Shown: positions 32,855 to 58,951 of the stretch, piece after piece | Numbering within the stretch: position 1 is the first letter of the stretch | Layout of the letters: each line of letters starts with the position of its first letter | Assembly (NCBI RefSeq): GCF_003326015.1 | Contig: NZ_CP023860.1 | Span: 992,001 to 1,056,000, forward strand | Source: Candidatus Thioglobus sp. NP1 | GTDB taxonomy: Bacteria > Pseudomonadota > Gammaproteobacteria > PS1 > Pseudothioglobaceae | DNA length: 64,000 nt | Direction: 5' to 3' | The notes under the pieces: generated by a model | What the model was told of the DNA's origin: nothing | Database searches by the model: none | What the model saw: only the letters and a program-made list of their open reading frames with translations | Position numbers and translations under genes: made by a program

Positions 32855-32872
32855 GCAATAAAGTTTTACTAT

Positions 32873-32912
32873 GTCCCGTGTTCAAGTATTCTTGGCACGG
32901 GACTTTTTTTTA
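32873..32912 (+). terminator. Terminator between binding protein and permease genes
   Basis: GTCCCGTG (32873-32880) pairs perfectly with CACGGGAC (32896-32903), with an inner CAAG/CTTG stem, followed by nine T. It is another internal terminator after a binding protein gene. Confidence 0.88.
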
Positions 32913-32934
32913 ATATTTTTAATATTAAATAGTT

Positions 32935-33822: not shown

Positions 33823-33824
33823 CA

Positions 33825-39236: not shown

Positions 39237-39243
39237 AAAAATA

Positions 39244-40155: not shown

Positions 40156-40165
40156 GAGTAAGAAT

Positions 40166-40768: not shown

Positions 40769-41631
40769 TGATAAGTGACTATCTTCCCTTAGATTCGTCT
40801 GATTTGGGTGAAGGCCCATTATGGCATCCAAAACTAAAGTCTCTATTCTGGTTTGATATAAATTCCTTTAAGATGCATAACTGGAATAACTCTAAACTTA
40901 AAACTTGGGTATTTTCTGAGCCAGTTTCGGCTGCAGGATGGATTGATGAGGAGCATTTAATGGTTGCGACTGCATCCTCATTAAGTAAACTTACCTTAGC
41001 AACTGATGAAAGAGAAGTGATCGTTGATTTAGAGGCTGATATGGTTCACACCCGATCAAATGATGGGCGCGCTGATCCATGGGGCGGTTTTTGGATTAGT
41101 ACAATGGGACTTAATGCGCAAGCAGATGCTGGTTCTATTTATCGCTTCTATAAAGGTGAGCTAAGACAGTTACACCAGAATATTACAATCCCTAATAGCA
41201 TTTGCTTTTCCCCAGATAAAAAGTTTGGATATTTTGCAGATACACGTAAACAGAAAATTTGGAAGCAGAAATTAGATGAATCTAATGGCTGGCCTGCTCA
41301 TGAACCAGTTATTTTTGTTGATCTGGAGCCTCAAGGTCTTCGTCCTGATGGCTCAGTATGTGATAGTGAGGGATTTCTATGGAATGCGCAGTATGGCGCC
41401 TCTAGGCTGGCAAGATATAGTTCTAATGGTCAATTAGATCAAGTAGTTAACTTTCCAGTTTCTCAGGTTACTTGTCCTGCTTTTGGCGGCGACTCATTAA
41501 ATACTATTTATACTACTTCGGCCTATCAGAATTTAAATAATGAAAATTTAAAAGTTGAGCCTTTAGCTGGTAAAGTATTTTATTTTCAATCAGAGATAAC
41601 TGGTTTAGCTGAATATCAAGTTAAATTATGA
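40768..41631 (+). CDS. SMP-30/gluconolactonase-family lactonase, probably galactonolactonase
   Basis: This 287-residue beta-propeller begins with DSSDLGEGPLWHP, which has the metal Glu. It contains RSNDGRADPWGGFWISTMG, IPNSICFSPD and RPDGSVCDSEGFLWNA, which carry the remaining metal ligands of SMP-30 lactonases. In this operon it would open galactonolactone to galactonate between the SDR and the dehydratase. Confidence 0.9.
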   Translation: MISDYLPLDSSDLGEGPLWHPKLKSLFWFDINSFKMHNWNNSKLKTWVFSEPVSAAGWIDEEHLMVATASSLSKLTLATDEREVIVDLEADMVHTRSNDGRADPWGGFWISTMGLNAQADAGSIYRFYKGELRQLHQNITIPNSICFSPDKKFGYFADTRKQKIWKQKLDESNGWPAHEPVIFVDLEPQGLRPDGSVCDSEGFLWNAQYGASRLARYSSNGQLDQVVNFPVSQVTCPAFGGDSLNTIYTTSAYQNLNNENLKVEPLAGKVFYFQSEITGLAEYQVKL

Positions 41632-41638
41632 GAATACT

Positions 41639-43540
41639 ATGATTCCAAAACTAGGTAGTTGTTATTATCCAGAACATTGGTCAGAGACTCAATGGGAAAA
41701 AGATGCTAAGGATATGATAGAGTCAGGCTTAACTTGGGTTCGAATAGGTGAATTTGCCTGGAGTCGATTAGAGCCTGAAGAGGGTGCTCAAAATTTTAAA
41801 TGGCTTGACCAAGCTATTAAAGTATTAGGAAATGCTGGATTGAATGTGGTTATGAGCACTCCAACTGCAGCTCCTCCAAGGTGGGTTGTAGATAAATGGC
41901 CGGATATGCTACTAGTTGATTCTGATGGACGTTCTCGTAAATTTGGCTCAAGGAGACATTACTGTTTTTCTCATCAAGGCTATCTCCAGGAGTCTTCAAG
42001 GATTACAAGGCTTGTTGCAAAGCGATATGGAAAAAACCCTTATATTAAAGCATGGCAATTAGATAATGAATATGGATGTCACAACACTACGTTGTCTTTT
42101 AGTGCTTCATCAGAAAGCTCGTTTAAACTTTGGTTATCTAATAAATATAAGACGATTGAAAATCTTAATGAGTCTTGGAGTAATGTTTTCTGGTCGATGG
42201 AATATAATAGTTTTGAGCAAATTGATTTACCAAATTTAACCGTTACTGATGCGAATCCAATTCATGAATTAGACTTCAGAAGGTTTAGCTCTGAGCAAGT
42301 AGTTAAGTTTAACCGCGCCCAAGTTTTAATAATGCGCGAACATACAAAAATGCCACTTATTCATAACTATATGGGAAAAATTACAGATTTTGATCATTAT
42401 GAAGTAGGTAATGATTTAGATATTGCTAGTTGGGATAGCTATCCTTTGGGCTTTTTAGAAGATCGATCGACTCAAAATGAAGACTTTAAACTTAAATTTA
42501 TGCGCTTTGGAGATCCTGATTTTCAGGCATTTCATCATGACCTATACAGGACTGTTGGGTGCGGCCGTTGGTGGGTAATGGAGCAGCAACCAGGACCTGT
42601 GAATTGGGCTCCTTACAACCCTGAACCTGCTCGTGGAGCGGTTAGGCTTTGGTCTTGGGAGGCCATTGCTCATGGCGCAGAAGTGGTAAGTTATTTTCGC
42701 TGGAGACAAGCTCCTTTTGCTCAGGAACAAATGCACGCTGGCCTGCAAAGACCTGATGGTGAAAGCGCACCCGGTTTAACTCAAGCTTCTCAAGTTAATT
42801 CTGAGTTAAAAGAATTTGATGGCATTCAGCAAGTTCAATCAAAGGTCGCTATAATTTTTGATTATGAAAGCTGTTGGGCATGGGAAATTCAGCCTCAAGG
42901 TAAAGACTTTAGTTATTTTGAATTAGTTTATGAATACTATAAGGCTCTTCGAAGCCTTGGTTTATCAGTTGATATACTCCCTCCAAATCAAAAAGATTTA
43001 ACTGGATATAAAATTGTACTTGCTCCTGGATTAATGCATTTCGATACAGATCTTAAGGTGGCAATTGAATCCTTTGAAGGCGTTTTAATTTCAGGTCCAA
43101 GATCTGGCTCAAAAACATTAGATATGGCTATTCCAAAAGACTTACCACCAGAAGTTCCTGGCGTTGTTGGTACCGTTGCTAGTGTTGAGTCTTTGAGGCC
43201 AAATGCCAGTATTTTAATTAAAGCTGGAGGTAGTTTTAATCGCTGGATGGAAACTTTAGTAGATTGTGATAATGTTATTGAGGAATGTGAGGATGGCCGT
43301 CCAGCACTCATTGGACAAACAAATAGACTATATTTAACGGGTTGGGGTAATCAGGAGGCGTTAACAAGAATATTTAGGGATGCTTGTTTATCTCAAAATA
43401 TTTCTACAATGGATCTGCCTGATTGCGTAAGAGTACGTGAAACACATAAACATCGATTTTGGTTCAACTACAGTGAGAAAGAAACGAATGTCAGTTCAGT
43501 TAGTCTTCCTCCTTCTGGGGTTTTCTGGGAACCTCTTTAA
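41639..43540 (+). CDS. Beta-galactosidase (GH42)
   Basis: This 633-residue GH42 enzyme starts LGSCYYPEHWSETQWEKDA and has the acid/base Glu in QLDNEYGCH (near 143) and the nucleophile Glu in WVMEQQPGPVNWAPYNP (near 314). The C-terminal half holds the trimerisation/beta domains. No signal peptide. It is the last gene of the galactoside operon and converges on an ABC ATPase gene six bases away. With the GH36 enzyme, both anomers of galactoside can be opened, as in digalactosylglycerol (alpha-Gal on beta-Gal-glycerol). Confidence 0.94.
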   Translation: MIPKLGSCYYPEHWSETQWEKDAKDMIESGLTWVRIGEFAWSRLEPEEGAQNFKWLDQAIKVLGNAGLNVVMSTPTAAPPRWVVDKWPDMLLVDSDGRSRKFGSRRHYCFSHQGYLQESSRITRLVAKRYGKNPYIKAWQLDNEYGCHNTTLSFSASSESSFKLWLSNKYKTIENLNESWSNVFWSMEYNSFEQIDLPNLTVTDANPIHELDFRRFSSEQVVKFNRAQVLIMREHTKMPLIHNYMGKITDFDHYEVGNDLDIASWDSYPLGFLEDRSTQNEDFKLKFMRFGDPDFQAFHHDLYRTVGCGRWWVMEQQPGPVNWAPYNPEPARGAVRLWSWEAIAHGAEVVSYFRWRQAPFAQEQMHAGLQRPDGESAPGLTQASQVNSELKEFDGIQQVQSKVAIIFDYESCWAWEIQPQGKDFSYFELVYEYYKALRSLGLSVDILPPNQKDLTGYKIVLAPGLMHFDTDLKVAIESFEGVLISGPRSGSKTLDMAIPKDLPPEVPGVVGTVASVESLRPNASILIKAGGSFNRWMETLVDCDNVIEECEDGRPALIGQTNRLYLTGWGNQEALTRIFRDACLSQNISTMDLPDCVRVRETHKHRFWFNYSEKETNVSSVSLPPSGVFWEPL

Positions 43541-44623: not shown

Positions 44624-45412
44624 TTAGTTGTTTTGTTCAGGAAAATTCCATGCACCAGCTTCTTTCCCAATTAGTTCTGAGGTCTTAAGTAGTTGAGGCT
44701 TGAATTCTTGAAGGCTCTCTAAGCTGTGAATGTCAATTGAGCTGGTGATTGATAAGCCACCAATCACTCTACCTTTTGAAGACAAAATAGGAGACGAAAT
44801 ACAAATAATTTTTACTTCATGCTCCTGTTTATCAAAGGCTATTCCTTGCTTTTTTATTATAGTTAGTTCTTTGCGAAGCGCTTTTTCTGAGGTAATTGTA
44901 AAGTCAGTATATTTAAAGAATGCTTGTTTAGAAATAACTCTACTTAGCGCATCTTCATCTAAAAATGCCATCATTGCCTTTCCTACTCCAGTGCAGTAGG
45001 CAGGGCCAACTTTGCCAGCTTGAGAGTACATTTCAATTGGTGAGCTAGGGTTTCGTTTGTCAACATAGAGTACCTGACCATTATCAAGCTGTGCAAGATG
45101 AACTGTTTCACCTACTTTCTCAGAAAGTTCATCAATAAATGGGAGTGCTATTGGGGCTAAAGAGCTTTGAAGCCATGCTGCATGAGCCATCCGAACTAGT
45201 TTTAAGCCTAACTTATAAGTCTGCTCTTCTTCATTGTAACTCAACATATTTTGGTTAAGTAAGGTTTGAAGCAATCTATAAAGAGTTGCTTTAGGATATT
45301 TGCTAGTTTTAAGAAGACTTGAAAAGCGCACAGGTGTTCCAAGTTCTGCAACTTCATTTAGAACATCTAAAGCTTTTCCTACTGTTCCATCACCCCTTAT
45401 ATCTACAGCCAT
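44624..45412 (-). CDS. IclR-family transcriptional regulator
   Basis: This is an IclR protein of about 262 residues, counted from the ATG at 45412; an in-frame TTG at 45424 would add four. The N-terminal winged helix-turn-helix contains VGKALDVLNEVAELG and YPKATLYRLLQTLL. The C-terminal effector domain has VHLAQLDNGQVLYVDKRN, AYCTGVGKAMMAFL and a GLSITSSI ending. It is upstream of the ABC ATPase gene and divergent from glpK. The pseudo-palindromes at 31471, 45525 and 52452 are its likely targets, linking galactoside, glycerol and the second sugar module. Confidence 0.9.
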   Translation of the reverse strand: MAVDIRGDGTVGKALDVLNEVAELGTPVRFSSLLKTSKYPKATLYRLLQTLLNQNMLSYNEEEQTYKLGLKLVRMAHAAWLQSSLAPIALPFIDELSEKVGETVHLAQLDNGQVLYVDKRNPSSPIEMYSQAGKVGPAYCTGVGKAMMAFLDEDALSRVISKQAFFKYTDFTITSEKALRKELTIIKKQGIAFDKQEHEVKIICISSPILSSKGRVIGGLSITSSIDIHSLESLQEFKPQLLKTSELIGKEAGAWNFPEQNN

Positions 45413-45524
45413 ATTCTCATACAAATATTATTGAATTTAAACTTCTTGTTGTTCACTATTAACAGTCTATTTAGGGTTATAATTTTAGCAGATTATGTAT
45501 ACTATTTTTATTAGTTTACAATAG

Positions 45525-45564: not shown

Positions 45565-47064
45565 ATGGTTAGTTCAGAAAAATATATTCTATCAATTGAT
45601 CAGGGCACAACCTCTTCTCGAGCAATTTTATTTGATATAAATTACCAAATTATTGCAGTAGGTCAAAAAGAATTTACGCAATTTTTCCCAGATTCTGGAT
45701 GGGTTGAGCATGATCCAGAAGAAATTTGGCTTTCCACATTAGAAAGTTGCAATAAAGCTATTAATGAGGCAGATATAAGGCCAAATCAAATTGCTTCAGT
45801 AGGAATTACTAATCAACGAGAAACAACCGTCGTTTGGGATAAAAAAACGGGAGAAGTAATTTACAATGCAATTGTATGGCAAGATAGAAGAACCTCTGAT
45901 AAATGCCTAAAGCTTCGAGAATTTGGCAATGAGGAAATGGTTACGCAAAAAACTGGACTTCTGCTTGATCCTTATTTTTGTGCTACTAAGATTGCCTGGA
46001 TTCTTGATAATGTCAATGGTGCTAGAAAAAAAGCAAATGCTGGCGAATTACTATTTGGAACTATAGATAGTTTTTTATTATGGCGATTAAGTAATCATGA
46101 GGTCCACTCCACAGATGCAACAAATGCTTGCAGAACTCTTTTGTATAACATTCATGATGGTTGCTGGGATGATGATTTACTAGAGCTATTTGATATACCT
46201 AAATCAATGCTCCCAAAAGTTTATGATAATGCTGCAAATTTTGGTAATATTCATGACAGTATATTTGGTGCTGAGATACCTATCTCTTGCTTAATTGGAG
46301 ATCAACCATCTGCCCTAGTTGGCCAAGCTTGCTTTAAACCTGGAATGGTTAAATCAACCTATGGGACTGGCTGTTTTGTTTTGATTAATACTGGAGATAA
46401 GCCAGTTAAATCTAATAATAAATTATTAACTACTTTTGCCTTTCAAATTAATGGAAAGCCATGCTTCGCACTAGAAGGTTCAATATTTGTAGCTGGTGCA
46501 GCCGTTCAGTGGCTTCGAGATGGACTAAAATTGATAGAGTCAGCTGAACAGTCAGAAGTTCTTGCTATGGAGGCTGATTCTAGTCAAGAGGTTTATTTAG
46601 TTCCAGCATTTGTTGGGCTTGGTGCGCCTTATTGGGATCCAGATTGTAGAGGTGCACTTTATGGCCTTACAAGAAATACAGGCCCCGCTGAAATTGCAAA
46701 AGCCACACTTGAGTCTGTGTGTTATCAAACATCTGATCTTTTGACAGCAATTTCAAAAGATTTGGGAGAAAATAAATTAAATGCTATCAGAGTAGATGGA
46801 GGGATGGCAGCCTCAAATTGGACAATGCAAACCCTTGCTAATTTAGTTCAACTGCCAGTAGATAGGCCAAAAAATTTAGAGACAACAGCTTTAGGTGCTG
46901 CGTATTTAGCCGGTATGCAGGTTGGTTTCTATCCTTCTATGGATGAGTTTGCAAAATCCTGGCAATCTGAGAATCAATTTAATTCAATAATAAATGATGA
47001 TCAAAGAGAGAAAAAACTCGCGGGCTGGAAGGATGCAGTTGAAAGAACACTTTCTAATAAGTAG
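45565..47064 (+). CDS. glpK: Glycerol kinase
   Basis: This is a 499-residue FGGY kinase with the GlpK pattern: [18 protein letters not shown] at the start, [48 protein letters not shown] and [15 protein letters not shown]. Length matches E. coli GlpK. The ATG at 45565 fits the family start; an in-frame TTG at 45544 would overlap the operator. It makes G3P for GlpD (21660-23234). It is not in the GlpR region but behind an IclR-type site, suggesting its glycerol comes from sugar-glycerol cleavage. Confidence 0.94.
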
Positions 47065-47100: not shown

Positions 47101-48018
47101 ATGATTACATGTGTTGGCCCTATTTTTCTCGACAGAGTTGTTAGAATCGATAGCTTTCCTGAAAAACCAATAAAACTAGTGGCAAATAGTCTAGAGAAAA
47201 GGCTTGGTGGGCCAGCTCCTGTAGCTAGTTTTGCTATTAAGTCTTTAGGTGGAGATGCTGAATTTATTGGTCGTTTTGGTGATGATGACGCAGCTAGTTT
47301 TTTAAAGTCTAAGTTTGATAAAGCTAATATTCAGATTAATAAGTCATTATTTATAAATGATGCACAAAGCTCTCAGAGTCATATTTTTGAAGATTTAGAG
47401 GGTGAAAGGATGCTTGCAGTCTTTAATGAGGAAAAACTTATTAATGTGAAATCTTTGCCAGCTTTTGATTTTTCATCTAAACAATCCTATTTGGTTGATA
47501 CTAATTGGGTTGAAGCCTCCCATTATGTTGCAATAAATTGTTATAAAAATAAAATTAACTGTGTGGTAGATCTGGATAATTTTATAAATAGTAAACTTAT
47601 TGAAGAGGTTGTTAATTCAGCATCTTTCCCAATTTTTTCTGAGATTGGTCTTAAGCGTTATACAAATAAGGAGTCTATTTCTGATTCATTAGAAAGCTTA
47701 TACACCTCAAATCCTAAGTTTTATGCAGTTACCATGGGCCCAAAAGGAGTTTATTGGATAAATAATGGAGAAATTTTTCATTGTGAATCACCTCAAGTTA
47801 AGGCTATAGAAACCAATGGTGCTGGTGATATTTTTCATGGAGCATTTATAAGATTTATTGAACTCAATAAAACCATCAAAGAGGCAATTGAGTTGGCAAC
47901 TGCATGTGCATCCTTAAAATGCACGAGAGTAGGTGGTATAGAGTCCCTTCCAAGTTTTGATGAAGTCATAGAGTTTTCAAAACATTTAAAATTATCTAAA
48001 AAAAATAATTCATTATGA
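47101..48018 (+). CDS. PfkB-family carbohydrate kinase
   Basis: This 305-residue ribokinase-fold kinase has the N-terminal pattern VGPIFLDRVVRIDSFPEKP and RLGGPAPVASFAIKSLGG. The C-terminal anion hole/catalytic base is in ETNGAGDIFHGAFIRF (near 240-255; Asp base). The substrate is not readable from the sequence. Sulfofructose kinase YihV and tagatose-6-phosphate kinases are in this family, which fits the LacD/YihT-like aldolase at 51399-52418. It overlaps the next gene by four bases. Confidence 0.85.
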   Translation: MITCVGPIFLDRVVRIDSFPEKPIKLVANSLEKRLGGPAPVASFAIKSLGGDAEFIGRFGDDDAASFLKSKFDKANIQINKSLFINDAQSSQSHIFEDLEGERMLAVFNEEKLINVKSLPAFDFSSKQSYLVDTNWVEASHYVAINCYKNKINCVVDLDNFINSKLIEEVVNSASFPIFSEIGLKRYTNKESISDSLESLYTSNPKFYAVTMGPKGVYWINNGEIFHCESPQVKAIETNGAGDIFHGAFIRFIELNKTIKEAIELATACASLKCTRVGGIESLPSFDEVIEFSKHLKLSKKNNSL

Positions 48019-48941
48019 AAAAAGTCCTAATAACAGAATTTATGGAGCAAGAGAGTGTTGATAAAATATCAGAGCTTTTTGATGTAAATTATGATCCAAG
48101 TCTGCATGAAAAACTTGAGATTTTAAGTTCTCAAATAGTTGATGTAGATGCCGTCATAGTAAGAAATAAAACTCAACTCAATGAAGAGCTATTAACTCAA
48201 GCAAAAAATCTTTGTTTTGTTGGAAGATTAGGCGTTGGTTTAGATAATATTAACACTGATTTCTGTTCTAGCAACAACATTAAAGTTCAACCTGCAACTG
48301 GAATGAATGCAGACTCTGTGGCTGAATATGTTATTAGTTGTGCACTCTCCTTATTAAAGAATATCCCAATTTCACATAATGGAACTATCATCGGTAATTG
48401 GCCAAGAACAACTATTGAGTCAAGAGAACTTGGGGGTAAAACTTTAGGACTTCTTGGCTTTGGTGTAATTGGGAAAAAAGTATGTCGATTAGCGCAGGTT
48501 TTTGGAGCAAAGGTAATTGCTTATGATCCTTTTGTTCCGGACTCTGATGCTAAAAAATATAATGTCTCGTTGGTTAGTCAAAATGATATTTTTGTTAATT
48601 CTGATGTAATATCGATCCACCTTCCTCTTACAGATGAAACTAAAGATTTAATTAATAAAAGCTCATTTAGCTTAATGAAAAGGGCTCCAATTGTTATAAA
48701 TTCATCAAGAGGATCAATTGTTAATGAGAAAGACTTATTAAAAGCTTATAGTGATAATTTGATTAAAGGTTTTGCGCTAGATGTTTACAGCTCTGAGCCT
48801 GTAAACGAAAACTTCTATAAACAGGTAAATGGTTCAATGAATTGTATTCTAACGCCTCATACTTCAGGAGTTACAGTTGAGTCAAATATTAGAGTGAGTC
48901 AGTTTATTGCTGACAAAACAATTCAGTTTTTAGGTAACTAG
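48015..48941 (+). CDS. D-isomer-specific 2-hydroxyacid dehydrogenase (SerA/SlcC-like)
   Basis: This 308-residue dehydrogenase has a NAD motif LGLLGFGVIGKKVCRLAQ (about 148-165) and catalytic regions VGRLGVGLDNIN (Arg 75 region), NSSRGSIVNEKDLL (Arg) and LTPHTSGVT (His, preceded by Glu in SSEP). It resembles SerA catalytic domains without the ACT domain. (S)-sulfolactate dehydrogenase is in the same family; hydroxypyruvate/glyoxylate reductase is an alternative. It converges with the next gene with a three- to four-base overlap. Confidence 0.85.
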   Translation: MKKVLITEFMEQESVDKISELFDVNYDPSLHEKLEILSSQIVDVDAVIVRNKTQLNEELLTQAKNLCFVGRLGVGLDNINTDFCSSNNIKVQPATGMNADSVAEYVISCALSLLKNIPISHNGTIIGNWPRTTIESRELGGKTLGLLGFGVIGKKVCRLAQVFGAKVIAYDPFVPDSDAKKYNVSLVSQNDIFVNSDVISIHLPLTDETKDLINKSSFSLMKRAPIVINSSRGSIVNEKDLLKAYSDNLIKGFALDVYSSEPVNENFYKQVNGSMNCILTPHTSGVTVESNIRVSQFIADKTIQFLGN

Positions 48942-50026
48942 AGATTAAACTCACTCATTTGAACGATTCTTCCTTCTTTAATTGACTTTTCAGCAGCCTC
49001 ACCAATTGCTACCGCAATAAGGCCATCTTTAAGTGATACTTCTGGTTTAGTATTATTTTGAATAGCCTTAATAAAGGAAGTGTGTTCATAATATGTAGAT
49101 CCATGGTGATGACCTACCTCATGAATTTTTGCATCAACCTCAATATTTTCCTTTAACGCAGTATTATCTTCTCTAAGACCAATTCGAATATCTGAGTTGG
49201 TGATTCCAGATTTATTAGAGGGTACTTCAGTTTCTATTTTTCCAATTGAGCCAACAGCACAAAGCTCTTCTTGATATTCTGAATTCTCAGCAAACATACA
49301 TAAGTCAAGGAATGCTCTAACGCCATTATCAAAGTCAACAATAACAAAAGCATTATCAAGGATGTCTGGAGTCATTCCATCATAAGTCTCATTTAAATGA
49401 TTTACATCTTGATTGCCACTGGCATAAACTTTTAATGGCTCACTTTGAGCAATGAGCCTCATTAGGTCAAAGAAATGACAGCACTTTTCAACTAAAGTAC
49501 CACCAGTTTTTATTGCAAATCTATTCCAGTCATCAACTTTATGAAGAAAGGGAAAGCGGTGCTCCCTTATCGAGAGCATCTTTAAATCACCAATAGTGCC
49601 ATTATGTATCTCTTGAATCATCCTTTGTACAGGAGGCATATAGCGATACTCCATTGCAGTCCAAATTACTCCAGAATAATTTTTTGCCATTTCTTCAAAT
49701 TCTTGGCAGTCTTTTACTGTCGTACAAAGTGGTTTTTCAATTAAGAGATGCGCTCCTGATCTCATAACATCTTTTAAAACGTCAATATGAGAAAAATTAG
49801 GCGTTGCAATTATAAATGCATTTGCAATATTAGCCTCAATAAGGTCATTGTAATCTTCAAAAATAGCTACTTCATTGTTAAGTAAGTCAAGACATTCATT
49901 TATCGATTTTTGGCTCGTATCGCACAATGCAACTACCTCAGCATCTTCAATAATCTCAATATTAAGTATGTGCTCTTGACCCATACAGCCGCCACCGATA
50001 ATAGCGTATTTAATTTTTTTAATCAC
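48938..50026 (-). CDS. Gfo/Idh/MocA-family oxidoreductase
   Basis: This 362-residue protein has a Rossmann motif YAIIGGGCMGQEHILNIE (about 7-24), FIIATPNFSHID, LLIEKPLCTT with the EKP motif, and GGTLVEKCCHFFDLMRL carrying the catalytic-region His and Asp. Members oxidise or epimerise sugars or, in NAD-dependent glycosidase families, cleave glycosides. It is translationally coupled to the isomerase-like gene (four-base overlap). A role as glycosidase or sugar dehydrogenase for the same sugar is inferred. Confidence 0.85.
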   Translation of the reverse strand: MIKKIKYAIIGGGCMGQEHILNIEIIEDAEVVALCDTSQKSINECLDLLNNEVAIFEDYNDLIEANIANAFIIATPNFSHIDVLKDVMRSGAHLLIEKPLCTTVKDCQEFEEMAKNYSGVIWTAMEYRYMPPVQRMIQEIHNGTIGDLKMLSIREHRFPFLHKVDDWNRFAIKTGGTLVEKCCHFFDLMRLIAQSEPLKVYASGNQDVNHLNETYDGMTPDILDNAFVIVDFDNGVRAFLDLCMFAENSEYQEELCAVGSIGKIETEVPSNKSGITNSDIRIGLREDNTALKENIEVDAKIHEVGHHHGSTYYEHTSFIKAIQNNTKPEVSLKDGLIAVAIGEAAEKSIKEGRIVQMSEFNL

Positions 50027-51399
50027 AGTGTATAGGTAGGTATGTTCATTTTTTTGCCAAAATGAATAAGCTTGTCAGATATATCACCATAAGTAAAAGC
50101 AACATGATGCTCTAGACCCCCCTTAAACATTTGTTCTAATTTATCGGGACTATCATCACCAAGACTTATTACTCCTGAGGTTCCAGAGAAAGAGTTTGGT
50201 CTATCTATAACATGACCTTTCATAATAAAGAATTGAAGTTTGTTTCTTGCTTTTGAAACTCTGAAGATTGTTATTTGTCCCTGCTTTAAACTGAAATCAT
50301 GAAGAAGAGGTTTTTTTCTATTTGAGTGGATACCTGATTTAGCGGTACCTTCTTTTGCCATACTAATTGGAGCAAGTCCACAATGCCAAAAAACTAGAGA
50401 ATTATCGGACTTATCAACATCAACAATATCTACCAAAAGTGAAGGGCTGTCATTCATCTGATTAAGTATATTACAGCTAATCCCTCCTAAAACGTCAGCT
50501 TCACAAGCACAGCTAACTTTTTTCTCATTCATCATAGCCATTGGACCACAAGAAGCACAACCATACTCAGTAAAAGTTTCTGGCCAACATCTAATAGCAA
50601 AGGCATCGAGATTATGCTTATCTTTTAGATTTTCAAGACCATGATAGATTGAAAGACTTTTATCAAACTCCTCCTGAACAAGCTCCTCAGTCCCTTGTAG
50701 ATAGCTTGAAACTGTATTTTTAGTTTCAGTAATAGTGGCAGCTGCAACATCTTTTGCCTCATCAAATAAGTCATCTAAATCAAGATCAACTAGTGAAACG
50801 TTAAGCTTGGTTGTTACCTCATTTGAGTCATAATCACAGGTGTCAAAACCCTCAGGCCTAGTTCCAATAATTCCAATTGTCTGCTTGTCAATGGTGTAAT
50901 TAAAATCTACTTCATTGCCACTCAAGGTAGCTTTATTCCATAATAGGGGTTGATTATCATTACTACCATTAATAAAATTTAAAAATAAAGACTTATTAAC
51001 ACTATCATCACTTTCAATAATTACAAACTCAGGAGTAATATTGTTCTTGATTAAAGAATGCATTCCAAGATTGAGTCCACAAATAGAGTTTAATCTTAAT
51101 CTTCCACCAGTCCTTGGTTCTGGGAATGAGACAATACATAGTGGTTTATTAATTGATTGAGCGAAGTTTAGAAGAAATTTTGCATCAGTAAATGTCGTTT
51201 GAAAAAGAAAAATTTTCTCACACTCATGGCTTTTAAAAAATGATAAAGCCTTATCAGCATCTTCATCATTTGTAACAAGTTTATCAAAGCCAATTGCATT
51301 AGGTGACAGGGATAACAGAATTGATTTAGCTTTACTAAATTTTGATTCAGCAAACTCAACATCAAATGTTTCTCTAGCTAGTGCTAAATATCCAATCAT
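50023..51399 (-). CDS. L-fucose-isomerase-like protein (COG2407 type)
   Basis: This 458-residue protein fits the FucI/AraA-like isomerase fold. AIRCWPETFTEYGCASCGPM (near 280-300) and SCACEADVLGGIS (metal Glu) are typical. GLEHHVAFTYGDI near the C-terminus supplies the metal His. Ketol isomerase activity on an aldose is the expected reaction, and it would precede the PfkB kinase and LacD-like aldolase. It is not a canonical FucI (about 590 residues). The substrate is unknown. Confidence 0.75.
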   Translation of the reverse strand: MIGYLALARETFDVEFAESKFSKAKSILLSLSPNAIGFDKLVTNDEDADKALSFFKSHECEKIFLFQTTFTDAKFLLNFAQSINKPLCIVSFPEPRTGGRLRLNSICGLNLGMHSLIKNNITPEFVIIESDDSVNKSLFLNFINGSNDNQPLLWNKATLSGNEVDFNYTIDKQTIGIIGTRPEGFDTCDYDSNEVTTKLNVSLVDLDLDDLFDEAKDVAAATITETKNTVSSYLQGTEELVQEEFDKSLSIYHGLENLKDKHNLDAFAIRCWPETFTEYGCASCGPMAMMNEKKVSCACEADVLGGISCNILNQMNDSPSLLVDIVDVDKSDNSLVFWHCGLAPISMAKEGTAKSGIHSNRKKPLLHDFSLKQGQITIFRVSKARNKLQFFIMKGHVIDRPNSFSGTSGVISLGDDSPDKLEQMFKGGLEHHVAFTYGDISDKLIHFGKKMNIPTYTL

Positions 51400-52418
51400 T
51401 AAAAACCTCCGAAGTTCTTAGTAAATTTTTCAGGTTCTTGAATTTTAAAGCCATTTATAAAAAATGTTTCAAGAGATTGAGCTTTTTTAGCTGTCAAATC
51501 ATTAAGTTTTTTAATATAAGTTACAGAGTCATTTTTTAAACCTTTTTCAACTAGGCTAATATCTGGATAGTTATTAAAAGCATCAAGCCAAATCGTTCTT
51601 CCAGCAAGGTAACCTGAGGCACCATTTTTATAAGCAAGTTCAAGACATTTATAAAAGGAGTCTTTACCCATTCCAGATGATAAGACAACCCAAGGCTTAT
51701 CATTGGTCGCTTCAGAGAGCTCTTTAAAAGCTAGTTCAGTCTTCCCACTAATCTCATTTTCAAGTTGATCACTATCAACAGGACTTTCTAACTTAAAAAT
51801 ATCAACTTTGTATTCATCTTTGGCGAACTCTTTGACACTATCAATTACATGACGTGACTTTTTTTGTTTTTGTTCTTGATATTCTTTTGTATGGTTTTCA
51901 TCGTCTTGAAAAGGGTAAACGAGAAGTTCTAATAGAAAAGGAATATTATATTTTTCACACTCTAGACCAACTTGTTTGACATATTTTTTTTGATGCTCAA
52001 TTGACTTTGCCTCAGCATCAGGTCGATACCAAGCTAAAACTTTGACTGCGTCTCCACCTGCTTTTTTAATTTTCTCTACACTCCAGTTATCAATATTTTC
52101 TGAGAATCGACCTTGTGCTGTTTCAACGAAACTATGTTCTTCAAGAGTTATAACAAGTCCTTTAGAGTTATTATATTGAAGAATATTTGATAATGAATAA
52201 TGAGGATCCATTAGAATGGCTGTAGCTAAATGAGATAAGTTTGTGGTAATTAATTTTTTACATTCAACTACTTCAGCATAGTTATGCTTTCTGCCTTTTG
52301 CCTTAGATATGATATTAAAGATGGGAGGTCTCTGGTCTACAGCAAGCATTTGAAAATGATTATTATCTGTACAAAGTTTTTTTAAATGTATTAACTTTCC
52401 AATATTTTTCGTTGGCAT
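51399..52418 (-). CDS. LacD/YihT-like class I aldolase
   Basis: This 339-residue TIM-barrel aldolase has FQMLAVDQRPP at the N-terminus, AILMDPHYSL, GGDAVKVLAWYRPDAEA (Schiff-base Lys region), VDIFKLESPVD, VVLSSGMGKDSF and ASGYLAGRTIW. This order fits tagatose-1,6-bisphosphate aldolase LacD and sulfofructose-1-phosphate aldolase YihT. Cleavage of a ketose-1-phosphate to DHAP and a C3 aldehyde is expected. It is first in the three-gene minus-strand operon, coupled to the isomerase by a one-base overlap. Confidence 0.83.
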   Translation of the reverse strand: MPTKNIGKLIHLKKLCTDNNHFQMLAVDQRPPIFNIISKAKGRKHNYAEVVECKKLITTNLSHLATAILMDPHYSLSNILQYNNSKGLVITLEEHSFVETAQGRFSENIDNWSVEKIKKAGGDAVKVLAWYRPDAEAKSIEHQKKYVKQVGLECEKYNIPFLLELLVYPFQDDENHTKEYQEQKQKKSRHVIDSVKEFAKDEYKVDIFKLESPVDSDQLENEISGKTELAFKELSEATNDKPWVVLSSGMGKDSFYKCLELAYKNGASGYLAGRTIWLDAFNNYPDISLVEKGLKNDSVTYIKKLNDLTAKKAQSLETFFINGFKIQEPEKFTKNFGGF

Positions 52419-52451
52419 TTTTTAATGATCTCTAGTTAGAATAATTATGAG

Positions 52452-52468
52452 GTTTCATATACTGAAAC
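52452..52468. promoter_or_regulatory. Candidate IclR operator between aldolase operon and sugar importer
   Basis: GTTTCATATACTGAAAC is a near-perfect palindrome with six-base arms and a five-base spacer, the same layout as at 31480 and 45534. On the minus strand a GAAC half-site precedes it at about the same distance as at the other two. It is 34 bases from the aldolase ATG and about 150 from the binding protein ATG. Confidence 0.5.
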
Positions 52469-52615
52469 TTGGGTTCATATTTCTGTTTATTATTTTACTG
52501 ATATATATCAATTCATGTATACTCGAATTTCATTAAATTTAAATATTTTGCTTTTAACTAGGTTTTTGAATTTAATAGAAAAAACAATTTAAAACAATAA
52601 CTATTGGAGAAAGAA

Positions 52616-53866
52616 ATGAAAAAAAGTATTTTATTGGCATCTATTCTTGCCGTCTCCTCGTTTGGTGTCAATGCAGCAGAAATTAAATTTGTTTGCTATC
52701 AAGATGCTAATGAGTGTGATGTTTTGCAACAGATGTCTTCTATATGGGAAGGTTCAACTGGAAATACAGTTAACTTTGAGATAGTTGGTTATGATGTCGT
52801 TAGAGATCAGCTTGAAAACCAACTTGAGGCAGGTTCTGCTCCAGACGTCGCCCGTGTTACAAATTTAGGTGGACTTAATCAATATTATCTTGATTTAACT
52901 CCTTATGTAGATGTTGCAAAATGGGAAGCAAATTATGGTGCTACATTGCCATGGTATAGAAAACCATCTGGCGATAATGGTATTTATGGCTGGCAAGCTC
53001 AGCTCACGGTTACGGGTCCATATGTAAACGTGACTATGTTTGAAGATGCTGGTGTTGATATGCCTGAGGAAGGAGCTTCATGGGATGATTGGGCTGATGC
53101 CTTAAGAGTTGTTAAATCAGAGCTTGGCTTAACTGCTGGTCTTGCTATGGATAGAACAGCTCACAGATGGGCTGGTCCTGCATTCTCATATGGTGCTAAA
53201 TTCCATGAAAATGGTGTTCCTATTCTAGTTGATGACGGCTTCAAAGCTTTTGCTGAAAAGTTTGTTGGGTGGCATGAAGAGGGCTTAATGCCTGCTGAAG
53301 GTTGGCCTGCTGGTGGGGGAACTGCTTATAAAAATGCAGCACCTCTTTTCCTTGATGGAACAGTAGCTATGCATATGTCAGGCTCTTGGATGCTTGGTAA
53401 CTATGATGCAAATATCACTGATTTTGAATGGAAAGTTGTTCCAATTCCATGTGGAACAGGTGGTTGTGGAGCAATGCCAGGAGGTTCTGGAGTTGTTGCG
53501 TTTAATTCAACTAAACACCCTGAAGTTTCTGCTTCTTTCATTGACTTCTTGTCACAAGCTGGAAGAGCTGGTTATTTTGCAGCTAATACTTCAAACATTA
53601 CTGCACACCAAGGTCTTCAGAAAAAAGGAATTGATTATGATGGTGTAAGCCAAAGAGTTTCTGCTGGACTTTCAACTTTTGCAGCTAATGCTGGTAAAGC
53701 AGCGGAATCTACACCACAAGCATACTGGTTCCAAGGCTACAATAAGAACTTTGCCATTTATGGTATTGTTCCTGATTACATAACCAAAGCTATTACGGGT
53801 GAAATGAGCCTTGATGACGCTTTGGCAGCAATTGATGCTGACGTAGCAGCAAAGATAGCTGAGTAA
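52616..53866 (+). CDS. Sugar ABC transporter binding protein (CUT1)
   Basis: This 416-residue family-1 binding protein starts at ATG 52616 (GGAGAAAG upstream; the in-frame TTG at 52604 contains the ribosome site). Signal peptide MKKSILLASILAVSSF with cleavage after VNA. The mature protein has an unusual Cys pair near the N-terminus (FVCYQDANECD) and another at PCGTGGCG. VARVTNLGGLNQYYLDLTPY and MHMSGSWMLGNYD are typical for alpha-glucoside/sugar receptors. It is divergent from the aldolase operon across an IclR-type site, so it probably delivers the sugar or glycoside for that module. Confidence 0.9.
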   Translation: MKKSILLASILAVSSFGVNAAEIKFVCYQDANECDVLQQMSSIWEGSTGNTVNFEIVGYDVVRDQLENQLEAGSAPDVARVTNLGGLNQYYLDLTPYVDVAKWEANYGATLPWYRKPSGDNGIYGWQAQLTVTGPYVNVTMFEDAGVDMPEEGASWDDWADALRVVKSELGLTAGLAMDRTAHRWAGPAFSYGAKFHENGVPILVDDGFKAFAEKFVGWHEEGLMPAEGWPAGGGTAYKNAAPLFLDGTVAMHMSGSWMLGNYDANITDFEWKVVPIPCGTGGCGAMPGGSGVVAFNSTKHPEVSASFIDFLSQAGRAGYFAANTSNITAHQGLQKKGIDYDGVSQRVSAGLSTFAANAGKAAESTPQAYWFQGYNKNFAIYGIVPDYITKAITGEMSLDDALAAIDADVAAKIAE

Positions 53867-53898
53867 TTAATTATTCAGTTATACTAAAGTTCTAAACT

Positions 53899-53934
53899 TT
53901 AAGGCCGTCTTTTATGGCGGCCTTAATTTATTTT
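53899..53934 (+). terminator. Terminator between binding protein and permease genes
   Basis: TTAAGGCCG (53899-53907) pairs perfectly with CGGCCTTAA (53918-53926) across a ten-base loop, followed by TTTATTTT. Same placement as the hairpins at 27427 and 32873. Confidence 0.85.
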
Positions 53935-53951
53935 AAAACCCAATTCTAATA

Positions 53952-55007
53952 ATGTTTGACGCTGTTCTAAATCTTAATAACTGGCTTTTATTTTTCGTTT
54001 TATATCTTTTGACTGGCTTTATATTGGCAAAGGATGTCTACGGCTTTGTTCCAAAACTTATGTCAAGTATTGGCTGGCCAATTGAATTTACTCAGAAGCT
54101 ATTTGGAACAAAATCACTGCCTTATCTTTTCTTATTTCCAAATATATTAATTTTTGGACTCTTTACTTTTCTTCCATTATTTATGAACTTTGGTTTTTCT
54201 GTAACCGATGGAACAAGTATTAACTTTGAAAATAGAGCCTTCTCAGGTCTGGATAACTTGGCAAGGATTACTCAGGAAATTCAAATTGATACTGGTGGTA
54301 TCAATGTTGAAAATGCTAAATTTAAGTCAGCTCTTTACGATACCTTTGTTTTTGTAATTCTTCAGGTGCCAATAATGATTCTTATTGCACTTTTTACTGC
54401 AATAGTTCTTAATAGAGAGGTTATAGGAAGAGGTTTTTGGAGAGCTGTATTTTTCTATCCAGTCATGCTAAGCCCTGTGGTTGTTGCATTTCTATGGACT
54501 CTTATATTGAAGAGGCAAGGTATGCTGTCTCAAACGCTAATGGATTGGAACTGGATTAGTGAACCAATCCAGTGGTTAATGGATCCAAGTTGGACTATGT
54601 TCTGGTCAATTTTTGTCTATACATGGGCTCATATGGGTTTTTATATGCTCATCTTACTCGCTGGCCTGCAGTCCATTCCAAGGGATCTTTATGAGGCGGC
54701 ACAAATGGATGGTACCTCTGAAAGGCGAGTTTTTTGGCGAATAACATTACCCTTACTTATGCCAATCTTGCTTGTTGTAACAGTGCTCTCATTAATTAAA
54801 GCAGTGCAAGCATTTGAAGAGCTGTATGCTCTTCAAGTTGGGTGGATTTCTCTTGTTTCTTATATTGTAGAAAATGCTGGAATTAGAGGTCAAAAAACTT
54901 TTTTTGGTCTTGGAATAGCGGCAATGGCATCGCTAATTGTTGCACTGATACTAATTGTTCTTTCGCTGCTTCAATTCTATTTAACTCGAAGGCAGATTAA
55001 GCTATGA
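53952..55007 (+). CDS. Sugar ABC transporter permease (MalF-type) with extra N-terminal helix
   Basis: This 351-residue permease has an additional membrane helix at about 10-28 before the standard six. The EAA loop is DLYEAAQMDGTSERRVFWRI (about 248-267), followed by AVQAFEELYALQVGWISLVS. Its periplasmic loop around 85-115 is slightly longer than usual. It overlaps the MalG-type gene by four bases. Confidence 0.91.
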   Translation: MFDAVLNLNNWLLFFVLYLLTGFILAKDVYGFVPKLMSSIGWPIEFTQKLFGTKSLPYLFLFPNILIFGLFTFLPLFMNFGFSVTDGTSINFENRAFSGLDNLARITQEIQIDTGGINVENAKFKSALYDTFVFVILQVPIMILIALFTAIVLNREVIGRGFWRAVFFYPVMLSPVVVAFLWTLILKRQGMLSQTLMDWNWISEPIQWLMDPSWTMFWSIFVYTWAHMGFYMLILLAGLQSIPRDLYEAAQMDGTSERRVFWRITLPLLMPILLVVTVLSLIKAVQAFEELYALQVGWISLVSYIVENAGIRGQKTFFGLGIAAMASLIVALILIVLSLLQFYLTRRQIKL

Positions 55008-56437
55008 ATGATGTTATAAAGTTTTTTACTCGCAGGCAGGGTAGAAAACAAGCAAGCTTGACTGACTGGATTTCATATGGTTTTTTATTCCTTGGGTTTT
55101 TAATTATCTTTTTGCCAGTTCTGTGGCTGGTTATGAACTCAGTTAAATCGCAGTTTTTACTTCAAAAATACGATACCAATTTTCTACCAATGGATTATGA
55201 GCGAATCGCCAGAGCAACAATCTACGGCCCTGATGGTAAAAATATATTGATTATGAAAGACCTAGATCCTTGGGTCATGTTCTGGAAAAATTTAGATGAC
55301 GATGAACGGGCTGAAAAGGATGTTATAAACTATATTAAGAACTTTAGTGGTAATGAATACTATGCATTAAGATCTCACTTTGGTTTAGTTTCAGTTTTAG
55401 CCAAAGAGTTAATTGTTGATCAAGACTTACCAGATTGGCTGATTAAGTATCCGAGTATGTTTCCTAGTGCGAAGAAAGATTATGATCCTCAGTCCATAGT
55501 TGATAGTTTAAATCAAGAGGACGCTAGATTATTGTCAGAATTTTTAGGACTCAAGCCCTATAAACCCAATGGGTTTACTGCTCAAATTCTAATCTCCATG
55601 GCTGATCCTCAAACGGGTGAGGTAGTTGAGTATTCAGTTAGTCGAATTAACCCAACTAAAGACACTGTTAATGCAAGGCTTGTATCTAACCCTGAAGCAG
55701 GTATAGCTAAACTTCCTCAGAATGAGATTATTATCAATAAAAGCTTAAAACCTTCATGGATAAACTATACAGACCCTTTGACTAAAAAAGCTCTGGGGAG
55801 TTTTGATGCTGTTAGGTGTCTCAATAACTCTGTATTTGTAACTATTGTGGCAACCTTGATAACTCTATTGATTAATTCTATGGCGGCTTTTGCTTTGTCT
55901 AAGTATCGATTTAATGGACAAGTAGTCTTTTTTGTAATAATTCTTGCAACACTTATGGTGCCAGCATCAGTATTAATTGTTGGTATTTTTAAGATGGTCA
56001 CAATGACTGGTCTTTCAGGCTCTCTATGGGGGGTCATAATTCCTGGGGCTGCAACGCCAACTGGAGTTTTTATGCTAAGACAGTATATGCTTACTATTCC
56101 AGATGAACTTTTAGAGGCTGCCAGAATGGATGCTGCGAGTGAGTGGACTATTTATTGGAGAATCATTTTTCCATTGGCTCTCCCAGCTATAGCCGTTCTA
56201 GGTATTCTTTCAATTATATGGCGATGGAATGATTTAATTCTGCCAATGATAGCTGTTTCAACAACAAAAGCTGCTTATACTATTCAGCTCTGTTTGCTTG
56301 ACTTTAACGGAGAGTACCTTGCAAGAGAGCACTATGCTTTAGCCATGACTGTGGTTAGTCTGGTTCCAACAACACTTGTATTTGTTTTCCTGCAAAAATA
56401 TATTACAACTGGCATTGCATCAACAGGGATGAAATAA
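55004..56437 (+). CDS. Sugar ABC transporter permease (MalG-type) with large periplasmic insert
   Basis: At 477 residues this MalG-class permease is about 200 longer than usual. After a first membrane helix (about 24-46) a hydrophilic stretch of some 210 residues (about 50-265) precedes helix two. The rest is standard, with EAA loop LLEAARMDAASEWTIYWRII (about 368-387) and WRWNDLILPMIAV. The insert should face the periplasm and might contact the binding protein or substrate. The frame is intact throughout. Confidence 0.9.
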   Translation: MNDVIKFFTRRQGRKQASLTDWISYGFLFLGFLIIFLPVLWLVMNSVKSQFLLQKYDTNFLPMDYERIARATIYGPDGKNILIMKDLDPWVMFWKNLDDDERAEKDVINYIKNFSGNEYYALRSHFGLVSVLAKELIVDQDLPDWLIKYPSMFPSAKKDYDPQSIVDSLNQEDARLLSEFLGLKPYKPNGFTAQILISMADPQTGEVVEYSVSRINPTKDTVNARLVSNPEAGIAKLPQNEIIINKSLKPSWINYTDPLTKKALGSFDAVRCLNNSVFVTIVATLITLLINSMAAFALSKYRFNGQVVFFVIILATLMVPASVLIVGIFKMVTMTGLSGSLWGVIIPGAATPTGVFMLRQYMLTIPDELLEAARMDAASEWTIYWRIIFPLALPAIAVLGILSIIWRWNDLILPMIAVSTTKAAYTIQLCLLDFNGEYLAREHYALAMTVVSLVPTTLVFVFLQKYITTGIASTGMK

Positions 56438-56441
56438 AATT

Positions 56442-57458
56442 ATGGCAAATCTTAAACTCATTGATATTAAAAAATCTTATGGCAAAACAGAGGTCATTCA
56501 TGGGCTTGAATTAGAGGTTTTAGACGGTGAATTTTGTGTGCTAGTTGGGCCATCTGGTTGCGGCAAATCAACCCTTTTGAGGATGATCGCTGGACTTGAG
56601 GCAATTACTGAGGGTTCTATCTTTATTAATGATGAAAGAGTAAATGATGTTTCTGCAGCAAAAAGGGGGTTAGCAATGGTTTTTCAGTCCTATGCTCTTT
56701 ACCCTCATATGACAGTTAGACAAAACCTAGCATTTGGCCTGGAAAATTTAAAGTTAGATAAAGAAGATATTGATCAGAGAATTACTAAAGCCGCTACTCA
56801 GCTTAGAATGGAGGAGTACTTAAAAAGACGCCCTGGGCAATTATCTGGTGGCCAAAGACAACGAGTTGCAATTGGAAGAGCTATTGTTAGGGAGCCATCA
56901 ATCTATCTATTTGATGAGCCACTATCAAATTTAGATGCAGAACTCCGAGTTGCTACTCGTGTTGAATTAAAAGCTCTACATGCAAGACTTGGAAACACCA
57001 TGGTTTATGTTACTCATGACCAAGTTGAAGCAATGACAATGGCAGATAAGATTGTTGTTATGCATGATGGAATTATTGAACAGACAGGAACCCCTCTAGA
57101 TTTATATAATAAACCTGCTAATTTATTTGTTGCTGGGTTTATTGGCTCACCAAAAATGAATTTTTTAAATTGCTCATCACTCCCAGAGAAGATCAAAAAA
57201 CTTGCTCCTAAGGGAGCCATCACCTTTGGTATAAGGCCAGAACATTTAACAATCACAGAAGAAAACTCATTACCTTTAAAGGTAGTAAATGTTGAGCAAC
57301 TAGGTTCTGATAGTTATCTCTATGGCGATACGATTGGTGATCAAGAGATCTCTATCAAATTAAACAATCAAACTGATATTAAATCTAATCAATCTGTTAA
57401 TGTTGGATTTAATTCAAGCAATACCCACTGGTTTGATTCAAATGGAATATCTCTGTAA
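56442..57458 (+). CDS. MalK/UgpC-class ABC ATPase of the CUT1 importer
   Basis: This 338-residue ATPase has LVGPSGCGKST (about 33-43), MVFQSYALYPHM, LSGGQRQRVAIGRAI and IYLFDEPLSNLD, then a TOBE-type C-terminus with FGIRPEHLTI. It follows the large permease by four bases and completes a binding protein-permease-permease-ATPase importer set. Confidence 0.93.
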   Translation: MANLKLIDIKKSYGKTEVIHGLELEVLDGEFCVLVGPSGCGKSTLLRMIAGLEAITEGSIFINDERVNDVSAAKRGLAMVFQSYALYPHMTVRQNLAFGLENLKLDKEDIDQRITKAATQLRMEEYLKRRPGQLSGGQRQRVAIGRAIVREPSIYLFDEPLSNLDAELRVATRVELKALHARLGNTMVYVTHDQVEAMTMADKIVVMHDGIIEQTGTPLDLYNKPANLFVAGFIGSPKMNFLNCSSLPEKIKKLAPKGAITFGIRPEHLTITEENSLPLKVVNVEQLGSDSYLYGDTIGDQEISIKLNNQTDIKSNQSVNVGFNSSNTHWFDSNGISL

Positions 57459-58918: not shown

Positions 58919-58947
58919 AACTTGAATAATGTTACAAATTTCAAGTT
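58919..58947. promoter_or_regulatory. Inverted repeat over the umuDC start of transcription
   Basis: AACTTGAA (58919-58926) and TTCAAGTT (58940-58947) are perfect eight-base inverted arms, 13 bases apart. They cover the predicted transcription start. No CTGT-N8-ACAG LexA box was found between 58869 and 58951, so this may be the operator actually used. Confidence 0.5.
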
Positions 58948-58951
58948 AGTT

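Follow-up and report, generated by a model that had tools for sequence, protein, structure and literature searches.

A probable sulfoquinovose catabolic cluster in Candidatus Pseudothioglobus combines elements of two sulfo-EMP pathways

Background

Sulfoquinovose (SQ), a sulfur-containing sugar from the membranes of plants and algae, is produced at a rate of about 10 billion tons per year (PMC10755693), and several gene clusters for its catabolism have been described, against which we compare here a five-gene locus of the open-ocean bacterium Candidatus Thioglobus sp. NP1. The locus lies at 47,101-52,418 of a 64,000-nucleotide stretch (contig NZ_CP023860.1, positions 992,001 to 1,056,000; hereafter the window, to which coordinates refer unless a genome or locus label precedes them), and all five of its open reading frames (ORFs) are intact. 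The source genome is a single contig of 1,689,404 bases, 99.94% complete. We find that the locus is very probably an SQ catabolic cluster, whose products are predicted to carry SQ-glycerol through a hybrid sulfo-Embden-Meyerhof-Parnas (sulfo-EMP) pathway, and then through SlcC, ComC and SuyAB, to pyruvate and sulfite.

The sulfo-EMP pathway of the Escherichia coli yih genes and of Arthrobacter AK01 resembles the route proposed here in its intermediates, its YihV-type kinase and its class I aldolase, and the Arthrobacter version also shares with the window a sulfoquinovosidase of glycoside hydrolase (GH) family GH188. Compared with the yih system, however, the window cluster has a FucI-like isomerase and no YihS, an aldolase of the LacD/8TNF type rather than YihT, and a SlcC-like enzyme, but neither YihU nor a sulfolactaldehyde (SLA) dehydrogenase. 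In the sulfo-EMP2 pathway of Bacillus and Megamonas, the established SQ isomerase SqvD belongs to the same FucI-like family (PMC9594981), yet the kinase is of the PfkA type (SqiK) and the aldolase of class II (SqiA), where the window has a PfkB kinase and a class I aldolase, with no SqvB seen in its cluster. In predicted gene content the cluster is consequently a hybrid of yih sulfo-EMP and sulfo-EMP2 with SlcC added. Hybrid sulfoglycolytic clusters were described earlier by Wei et al. (PMC9594981), and a nearly identical gene set is also known, from the GH188 clusters Y160 and Y158 of Actinobacteria IMCC26103 and Clavibacter, put forward as possible new pathways by Backlund and Higgins (PMC11465081): fucose isomerase, sulfofructose (SF) kinase, sulfofructose-1-phosphate (SFP) aldolase (in Y160), phosphoglycerate dehydrogenase (PGDH), SuyAB subunits, ABC transporter and GH188 protein. 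These clusters carry Tyr at the Leu170 position of the sulfoquinovosidase and hold their suy genes within the cluster (Y160 also has an SLA dehydrogenase), whereas the window protein has Leu and its suyAB genes are unlinked; moreover, the PGDH is given no role in their description, while its counterpart in the window is assigned below as a candidate SlcC.

Two further systems bear on the comparison. SqgA of Arthrobacter and Flavobacterium (PMC10755693) belongs to the same family as the window sulfoquinovosidase, which keeps all the catalytic and sulfonate residues in the common Leu170 form, comes from Pseudothioglobus and has an activity that is predicted from sequence. The tandem pathway of Paracoccus strain Merri (PMC12421959) likewise proceeds from S-SLA to S-sulfolactate (S-SL), SlcC/ComC inversion and SuyAB cleavage, and that strain also lacks a classical SLA dehydrogenase, but it enters by an Entner-Doudoroff route from sulfofucose, whereas the window pathway would enter by an EMP route from SQ. 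In the main texts of the open-licence literature we found no report of SQ catabolism for Thioglobus or Pseudothioglobus beyond one incidental co-mention, which is weak evidence of absence, and no paper joining Pseudothioglobus and sulfolactate.

A sulfoquinovosidase and three sulfoglycolytic enzymes

The best solved relatives of the Gfo/Idh/MocA protein are the sulfoquinovosidases FlSqgA (8QC2; 380 bits, E 1e-112) and ArSqgA (8QC3; 369 bits, E 1.6e-109), followed by 8ZN9 ('oxidoreductase, putative'; 318 bits), all further solved structures scoring below 90 bits. GH188 activity has been demonstrated on SQ glycosides, and in ArSqgA the substrate is contacted by Lys107, Tyr136, Glu189 (which contacts O4 of SQ), His193 and His321, and its sulfonate by Arg166, the Leu170 backbone and Lys172 (Kaur et al., PMC10755693). 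On alignment to 8QC3, allowing for a constant shift of 13 from chain index to published numbering, the window equivalents are K98, Y127, E180, H184 and H307 (catalytic) and R157, L161 and K163 (sulfonate); all eight are identical to those of ArSqgA and conserved without exception in an alignment of 65 copies that includes the window protein. By family and by residues the protein is a GH188 sulfoquinovosidase (SqgA), with predicted catalysis. A preliminary description of the locus, which suggested either a sulfosugar pathway or a different sugar entirely, had seen no sulfoquinovosidase here; because the Gfo/Idh protein is of GH188 and carries every published residue, this main objection is removed.

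The only NCBIfam match of the isomerase is NF048012, sulfoquinovose isomerase (302 bits, E 4e-90), and we regard the protein as a predicted family-level relative of SqvD/SftI, not as the narrow equivalog. Its AlphaFold model (pLDDT 93.4) matches arabinose and fucose isomerases at 11-12% identity and with poor global superposition, and residues E300, D324 and H431 are invariant in 41 sequences, E and D being spaced by 24 residues, as are E337 and D361 of FucI, which we take to be metal ligands. The preliminary description saw a fucose-isomerase-like protein in place of YihS; as an objection to SQ this point is answered by the SqvD family.

For the kinase, the best PDB match is YihV (7AG6, E 2e-41), which the single sequence matches at 145 bits as against 64 for ribokinases and fructokinases; a profile of 22 cluster kinases gives 345 bits for YihV and 163 for ribokinase. 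K25 is invariant and stands at the position of YihV Lys27, which we take, with Asn109 and Arg138, to form the sulfonate pocket; on this assumed set of pocket residues, Asn109 is unmatched in the alignment. The evidence supports a YihV-type sulfofructose kinase, at the level of predicted specificity.

The aldolase matches 8TNF best by sequence (E 9e-86), and 8TNF is also the top Foldseek hit of its AlphaFold2 model (pLDDT 90.8); tagatose-bisphosphate aldolases and then YihT follow. As 8TNF is deposited as the sulfohexulose-1-phosphate aldolase of Paracoccus onubensis strain Merri, the assignment as a class I sulfohexulose-1-phosphate (SFP) aldolase is supported, with specificity again predicted. 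Lys209, in an F-K-L-E motif, is invariant in 31 sequences and is presumably the Schiff-base lysine. Two divergent Pseudothioglobus clusters (L076 and L070, in genomes G426 and G434) have an operon without the aldolase, for which another aldolase may substitute.

A candidate sulfolactate dehydrogenase and unlinked sulfonate genes

The SerA-like protein scores 247 bits against a PGDH equivalog cut-off of 454, and shares 38-45% identity with 2-hydroxyacid dehydrogenases whose genes are linked to suyAB or comC; PGDH function is rejected on both grounds. Its homologue in the nearest cluster outside the genus (L090; 53% identity) shares that cluster with sulfopyruvate decarboxylase ComDE, whose alpha and beta subunits adjoin PfkB and both exceed curated cut-offs. 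Among three annotated Paracoccus plasmid records, an Ldh-family (ComC) gene is adjacent to the homologue in all three, with suyA/suyB-type genes nearby in two and hpsN-type genes nearby in two. Elsewhere the SerA-like gene comes after SqgA or GabD in PfkB-Ald-Iso-SqgA operons (e.g. L096, L099, L127 and L141) or is grouped with SuyA, SuyB and ComC (L093, L113, L123, L125, L126, L131 and L154), and the relatives in marine Alphaproteobacteria and other groups adjoin either suyAB/comC or GabD. Because conversion of sulfolactate to sulfopyruvate is the chemistry common to these neighbourhoods, we infer from gene linkage that the protein is probably SlcC, acting on S-sulfolactate, in agreement with the earlier placement of the protein in the sulfolactate-dehydrogenase family. 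The L090 locus itself, from the single-cell alphaproteobacterium AG-891-K05, contains ComD/ComE and a mutarotase-like gene within its SQ cluster (L090:14294-15360), and is apparently a variant leading from SQ to sulfoacetaldehyde.

Genes for sulfolactate use, the presence of which elsewhere in the genome had been raised in the preliminary description, were indeed found. At 72.5-81.2 kb of the source genome (G000:C1), a small SuyA-like ORF and SuyB, a protein of the GD_AH family, stand beside an HpsN-like homologue of histidinol dehydrogenase, a short-chain dehydrogenase/reductase (SDR), a zinc alcohol dehydrogenase, a GntR regulator and a tripartite ATP-independent periplasmic (TRAP) transporter, an arrangement that is laid out as a dihydroxypropanesulfonate (DHPS; hps) locus. 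No NCBIfam Suy model matched the SuyA and SuyB candidates, whose identification rests on the size, order and linkage of their genes. A solitary gene at 358.9 kb encodes a ComC-like protein of the Ldh family with 50-55% identity to Paracoccus Ldh proteins, so that SuyAB and the SlcC-like/ComC-like pair of SuyAB-dependent sulfolactate mineralisation all occur in one genome. In three congeners (G378:C70, G440:C6 and G426:C35) the ComC gene directly adjoins SuyB. In a set of 11 congeners with a completeness of 90% or more, SuyB and an intact ComC are both present in all 7 that have the SQ isomerase; of the 4 that lack it, 1 has SuyB and none an intact ComC. These counts come from related genomes and are supportive rather than a formal test. 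In one genome lacking the SQ isomerase but retaining SuyB (G396), the ComC match is broken by a TAA codon (G396:C32:16367-17206).

Distribution and conservation

The genus is Candidatus Pseudothioglobus (Arctic96BD-19 clade), which is related to SUP05. The same cluster, with isomerases 76-88% identical, occurs in Candidatus Pseudothioglobus aerophilus, Candidatus Thioglobus sp. and a SUP05 cluster bacterium. Of 60 genomes of the family, 6 yielded SqgA, all among the 12 congeners drawn (0/48 others); the isomerase was found in 15 of 29 genomes of the genus and 2 of 369 drawn across the class. Across Pseudothioglobus the five genes are kept together even though the PfkB-SlcC pair flips relative to the Ald-Iso-SqgA block, and in other lineages 66 isomerase-bearing loci have PfkB nearby in 58 cases, the aldolase in 54, a Gfo/Idh protein in 52 and a SerA-like protein in 32; given this conservation and co-location, the set is not a chance neighbourhood. 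A scan of named genomes returned 436 relatives of the isomerase, the best loci retained outside the genus belonging mostly to Alphaproteobacteria (many marine by name), together with SAR324, Woeseiaceae, a SAR116 cell and Thioalkalivibrio sp. HK1. Zymomonas mobilis plasmid pZZM402 (L028, 128-11361) carries genes for a class II aldolase, a mutarotase-like protein, a SqvD-type isomerase, a GH188 protein 46% identical to the window SqgA and a dehydrogenase resembling succinate semialdehyde dehydrogenase (SSADH), with no evident kinase nearby, and is apparently an SQ cluster in an organism of the ethanol industry.

Proposed pathway and alternatives

The pathway that we propose would begin with uptake of SQ-glycerol or SQ by the adjacent ABC importer, followed by cleavage of SQ-glycerol by SqgA via transient NAD+ oxidation at C3, the released glycerol being captured by glycerol kinase. 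The SqvD-type isomerase would then convert SQ to sulfofructose, the YihV-type kinase would phosphorylate this to sulfofructose-1-phosphate, and the class I aldolase would yield dihydroxyacetone phosphate and S-sulfolactaldehyde. At the weakest step, an unlinked enzyme, most likely an aldehyde dehydrogenase of the GabD type, would oxidise S-sulfolactaldehyde to S-sulfolactate, after which the SlcC-like enzyme may form sulfopyruvate, the unlinked ComC may reduce this to R-sulfolactate, and SuyAB, encoded in the hps locus, may release pyruvate and sulfite. Sulfoglycolysis produces S-SLA and S-SL, whereas HpsN is R-selective and gives the R form (PMC11382572); for this reason an inversion by SlcC and ComC, as proposed for sulfofucose degradation (PMC12421959), would be needed before SuyAB, and HpsN, preferring the R series, is an unlikely SLA oxidiser.

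Several observations weigh against this pathway. As the preliminary description had noted, no SLA reductase or dehydrogenase is seen in the cluster, and it contains no aldehyde dehydrogenase. Six aldehyde dehydrogenases of the genome were scanned and none has a specific sulfolactaldehyde annotation; the best GabD-like candidate (G000:C1:1491701) adjoins polyamine-type ABC genes, and true SSADHs outscore the Rhizobium SLA dehydrogenase 8C54 as its match. A GabD-type gene is nearby in 20 of the 66 loci of other lineages. At the D-x-R-W motif the window kinase has Asn in place of the YihV Arg, which most relatives keep, and the 302 bits of the isomerase fall well short of the curated NF048012 cut-off of 700. 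Against the same model, scores of 249-343 were obtained for six isomerases from Alpha- and Gammaproteobacteria, Chloroflexota, SAR324 and Zymomonas, and 275 for the L090 isomerase; as the other non-Firmicutes relatives tested thus all score low, the cut-off marks a narrower clade, and the window isomerase belongs to a sister group. The aldolase was not detected in congeners G426 and G434 (assemblies 77% and 82% complete) or within 10 kb at the L090 SQ locus, and two genomes of 89% completeness (G410 and G424) possess SuyB and ComC but no SQ isomerase.

That sulfoglycolysis instead stops at exported sulfolactate or DHPS, with the SlcC-like enzyme serving external sulfolactate and hps, suyAB and comC only phytoplankton-derived DHPS, strikes us as rather unlikely. 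Known sulfo-EMP organisms do excrete DHPS or SL (PMC9594981, PMC8873060), the suyAB genes of the window's genome are grouped with DHPS and not SQ genes, and the missing SLA dehydrogenase would fit such a truncated route; yet the SQ cluster has no exporter, as the preliminary description had also noted. Moreover, it contains SlcC genus-wide as well as at 32 of the 66 loci from other lineages, several of which hold suyAB and comC within the cluster, and it co-occurs with ComC in well-assembled congeners. Diversion of SlcC-made sulfopyruvate to sulfoacetaldehyde and cleavage by Xsc, with no reduction to R-sulfolactate, is brought to mind by ComDE in L090, the closest cluster outside the genus, and by the presence of Xsc in the window's genome (1013 bits, cut-off 676). 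Since ComD is absent from this 99.9%-complete genome, where ComC and SuyAB are present, the ComDE/Xsc route is rejected for this organism, and we hold such an ending to be very improbable.

With regard to the sugar itself, SQ is likely to be the exact substrate, as opposed to another 6-sulfo-hexose. Sulfofucose, degraded via sulfotagatose, would be in keeping with the origin of 8TNF in strain Merri, which uses sulfofucose but not SQ for growth, with the galacto sugars that suit FucI- and LacD-like families, and with an adjacent galactoside island. We nevertheless consider a substrate of this kind improbable, given that SqgA retains its SQ-contacting residues, including the equivalent of Glu189, which contacts O4, in a family shown to act on SQ glycosides, that the nearest solved kinase is YihV, and that strain Merri degrades sulfofucose by the Entner-Doudoroff route without inducing its PF01791 aldolase. 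An ordinary hexose or deoxyhexose pathway (tagatose, fucose or inositol), assembled from promiscuous families, is suggested by matches to general Pfam and NCBIfam models for tagatose-bisphosphate aldolase, ribokinase and inositol dehydrogenase, but these are superfamily-wide or below equivalog cut-offs, whereas the best specific match of every protein is a sulfosugar enzyme and the relatives' neighbours are sulfolactate genes. On this best-match evidence across all proteins we reject it as extremely improbable. The suggestion of a different sugar entirely thus finds no support in the sense of an ordinary sugar, and the sulfosugar reading offered beside it gains support from every protein (GH188, NF048012, YihV, 8TNF and SlcC linkage).

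Organisation of the locus and neighbouring genes

The SQ unit is larger than five genes, and includes a glycerol kinase, an IclR regulator and an ABC sugar importer on its two flanks (Table 1). The forward block (glpK)-pfkB-slcC converges with the reverse block aldolase-isomerase-sqgA at 48938-48941, and neighbouring genes inside each block overlap by 1-4 bases, except that glpK and pfkB stand 36 bases apart. The aldolase block and the importer operon (52616-57458) run divergently.

Table 1 Features of the proposed SQ unit, with window positions and the basis of each assignment
Feature	Position	Strand	Basis
IclR-family regulator	44624..45424	-	Pfam IclR_C and HTH_IclR; divergent from glpK
Glycerol kinase GlpK	45565..47064	+	NF000756 743 bits (cut-off 498); TIGR01311 693 (cut-off 590)
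Predicted PfkB-family sulfofructose kinase, YihV type	47101..48018	+	Best PDB match YihV 7AG6
Probable SlcC-like (S)-sulfolactate dehydrogenase, SerA-like	48015..48941	+	Linkage of relatives to suyAB/comC/ComDE
Predicted GH188 NAD+-dependent sulfoquinovosidase SqgA, Gfo/Idh/MocA	48938..50026	-	8QC2/8QC3 similarity and residues
Predicted SqvD/SftI-family SQ-sulfofructose isomerase	50023..51399	-	NF048012 match; arabinose/fucose-isomerase fold
Predicted class I sulfohexulose-1-phosphate (SFP) aldolase, LacD-related, DeoC/LacD type	51399..52418	-	8TNF match
Divergent control region, aldolase operon/ABC operon	52419..52615	.	197-base gap between divergent genes
ABC solute-binding protein, proposed SQ/SQ-glycerol importer	52616..53866	+	SBP_bac_1
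ABC permease 1	53952..55007	+	Conserved alongside SQ genes
ABC permease 2	55004..56437	+	Conserved alongside SQ genes
ABC ATPase	56442..57458	+	Conserved alongside SQ genes

GlpK adjoins the SQ genes in many congeners, and in G426 it is accompanied by a GlpD-like oxidoreductase and a regulator of the DeoR type. The IclR gene adjoins glpK in several congeners too, and its product is a probable regulator of the neighbourhood. A search for an operator shared by the two control regions yielded, among promising words, just the 9-mer ATGTATACT, which may be a -10 element, and the candidate was rejected. In some congeners a gene read from its sequence as a DeoR-type regulator, the family to which the E. 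coli SQ regulator CsqR likewise belongs, stands between aldolase and ABC operon (L078:8110-8934); the window lacks a regulator gene at this place. The solute-binding protein, which matches solved structures weakly (2W7Y), is retained with the SQ genes where other neighbours are gone (G378 and G426), and permease 1 is 64% identical to a Thioalkalivibrio sp. HK1 protein encoded beside SqgA, PfkB and the isomerase (L124). A strong stem-loop followed by a T-rich stretch (53899-53926) separates the solute-binding-protein gene from the first permease gene; stem-loops at such sites are often seen in operons that overproduce the binding protein. A gene pair resembling the error-prone polymerase UmuD/UmuC (58922-60806), again by sequence reading, lies further downstream, past the ABC operon and a gene for an amidohydrolase-like protein.

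Directly upstream, at 31622-43540, lies a galactoside island with an ABC importer, a GH36-like protein (34670-36754), a GH42-like protein, an IlvD/EDD-type dehydratase, an SDR, a DgoK-like kinase, a 2-keto-3-deoxy-6-phosphogalactonate (KDPGal) aldolase and an SMP-30-like protein, the GH36/GH42, DgoK and SMP-30 names coming from sequence reading and not from family matches.

Implications

The position of this galactoside island allows a tentative and rather doubtful idea, namely that 31.6-57.5 kb forms one island for the three head groups of thylakoid glycolipids, with sulfite from SuyAB feeding sulfur oxidation. The galactosyl-glycerols of mono- and digalactosyldiacylglycerol (MGDG and DGDG) would fall to GH36- and GH42-like galactosidases with a De Ley-Doudoroff-type galactose route, the SQ-glycerol of sulfoquinovosyl diacylglycerol (SQDG) to the SQ module, and the shared glycerol to the glycerol kinase in between. 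If true, photosynthetic membrane lipid would be a mixotrophic source of both carbon and energy for the organism.

Full SQ breakdown is usually described as a two-tier process divided across organisms, and a single cell of this small-genome relative of marine sulfur oxidisers, which apparently encodes both tiers, could probably perform both. The comparison also gives a role to the unexplained 'phosphoglycerate dehydrogenase' that recurs in GH188 clusters. Finally, the PfkB-LacD-FucI-GH188-SlcC module is widespread; most of its carriers are marine Alphaproteobacteria, with others among Gammaproteobacteria and SAR324, and in-situ turnover of SQ by these lineages is therefore testable with marker genes.

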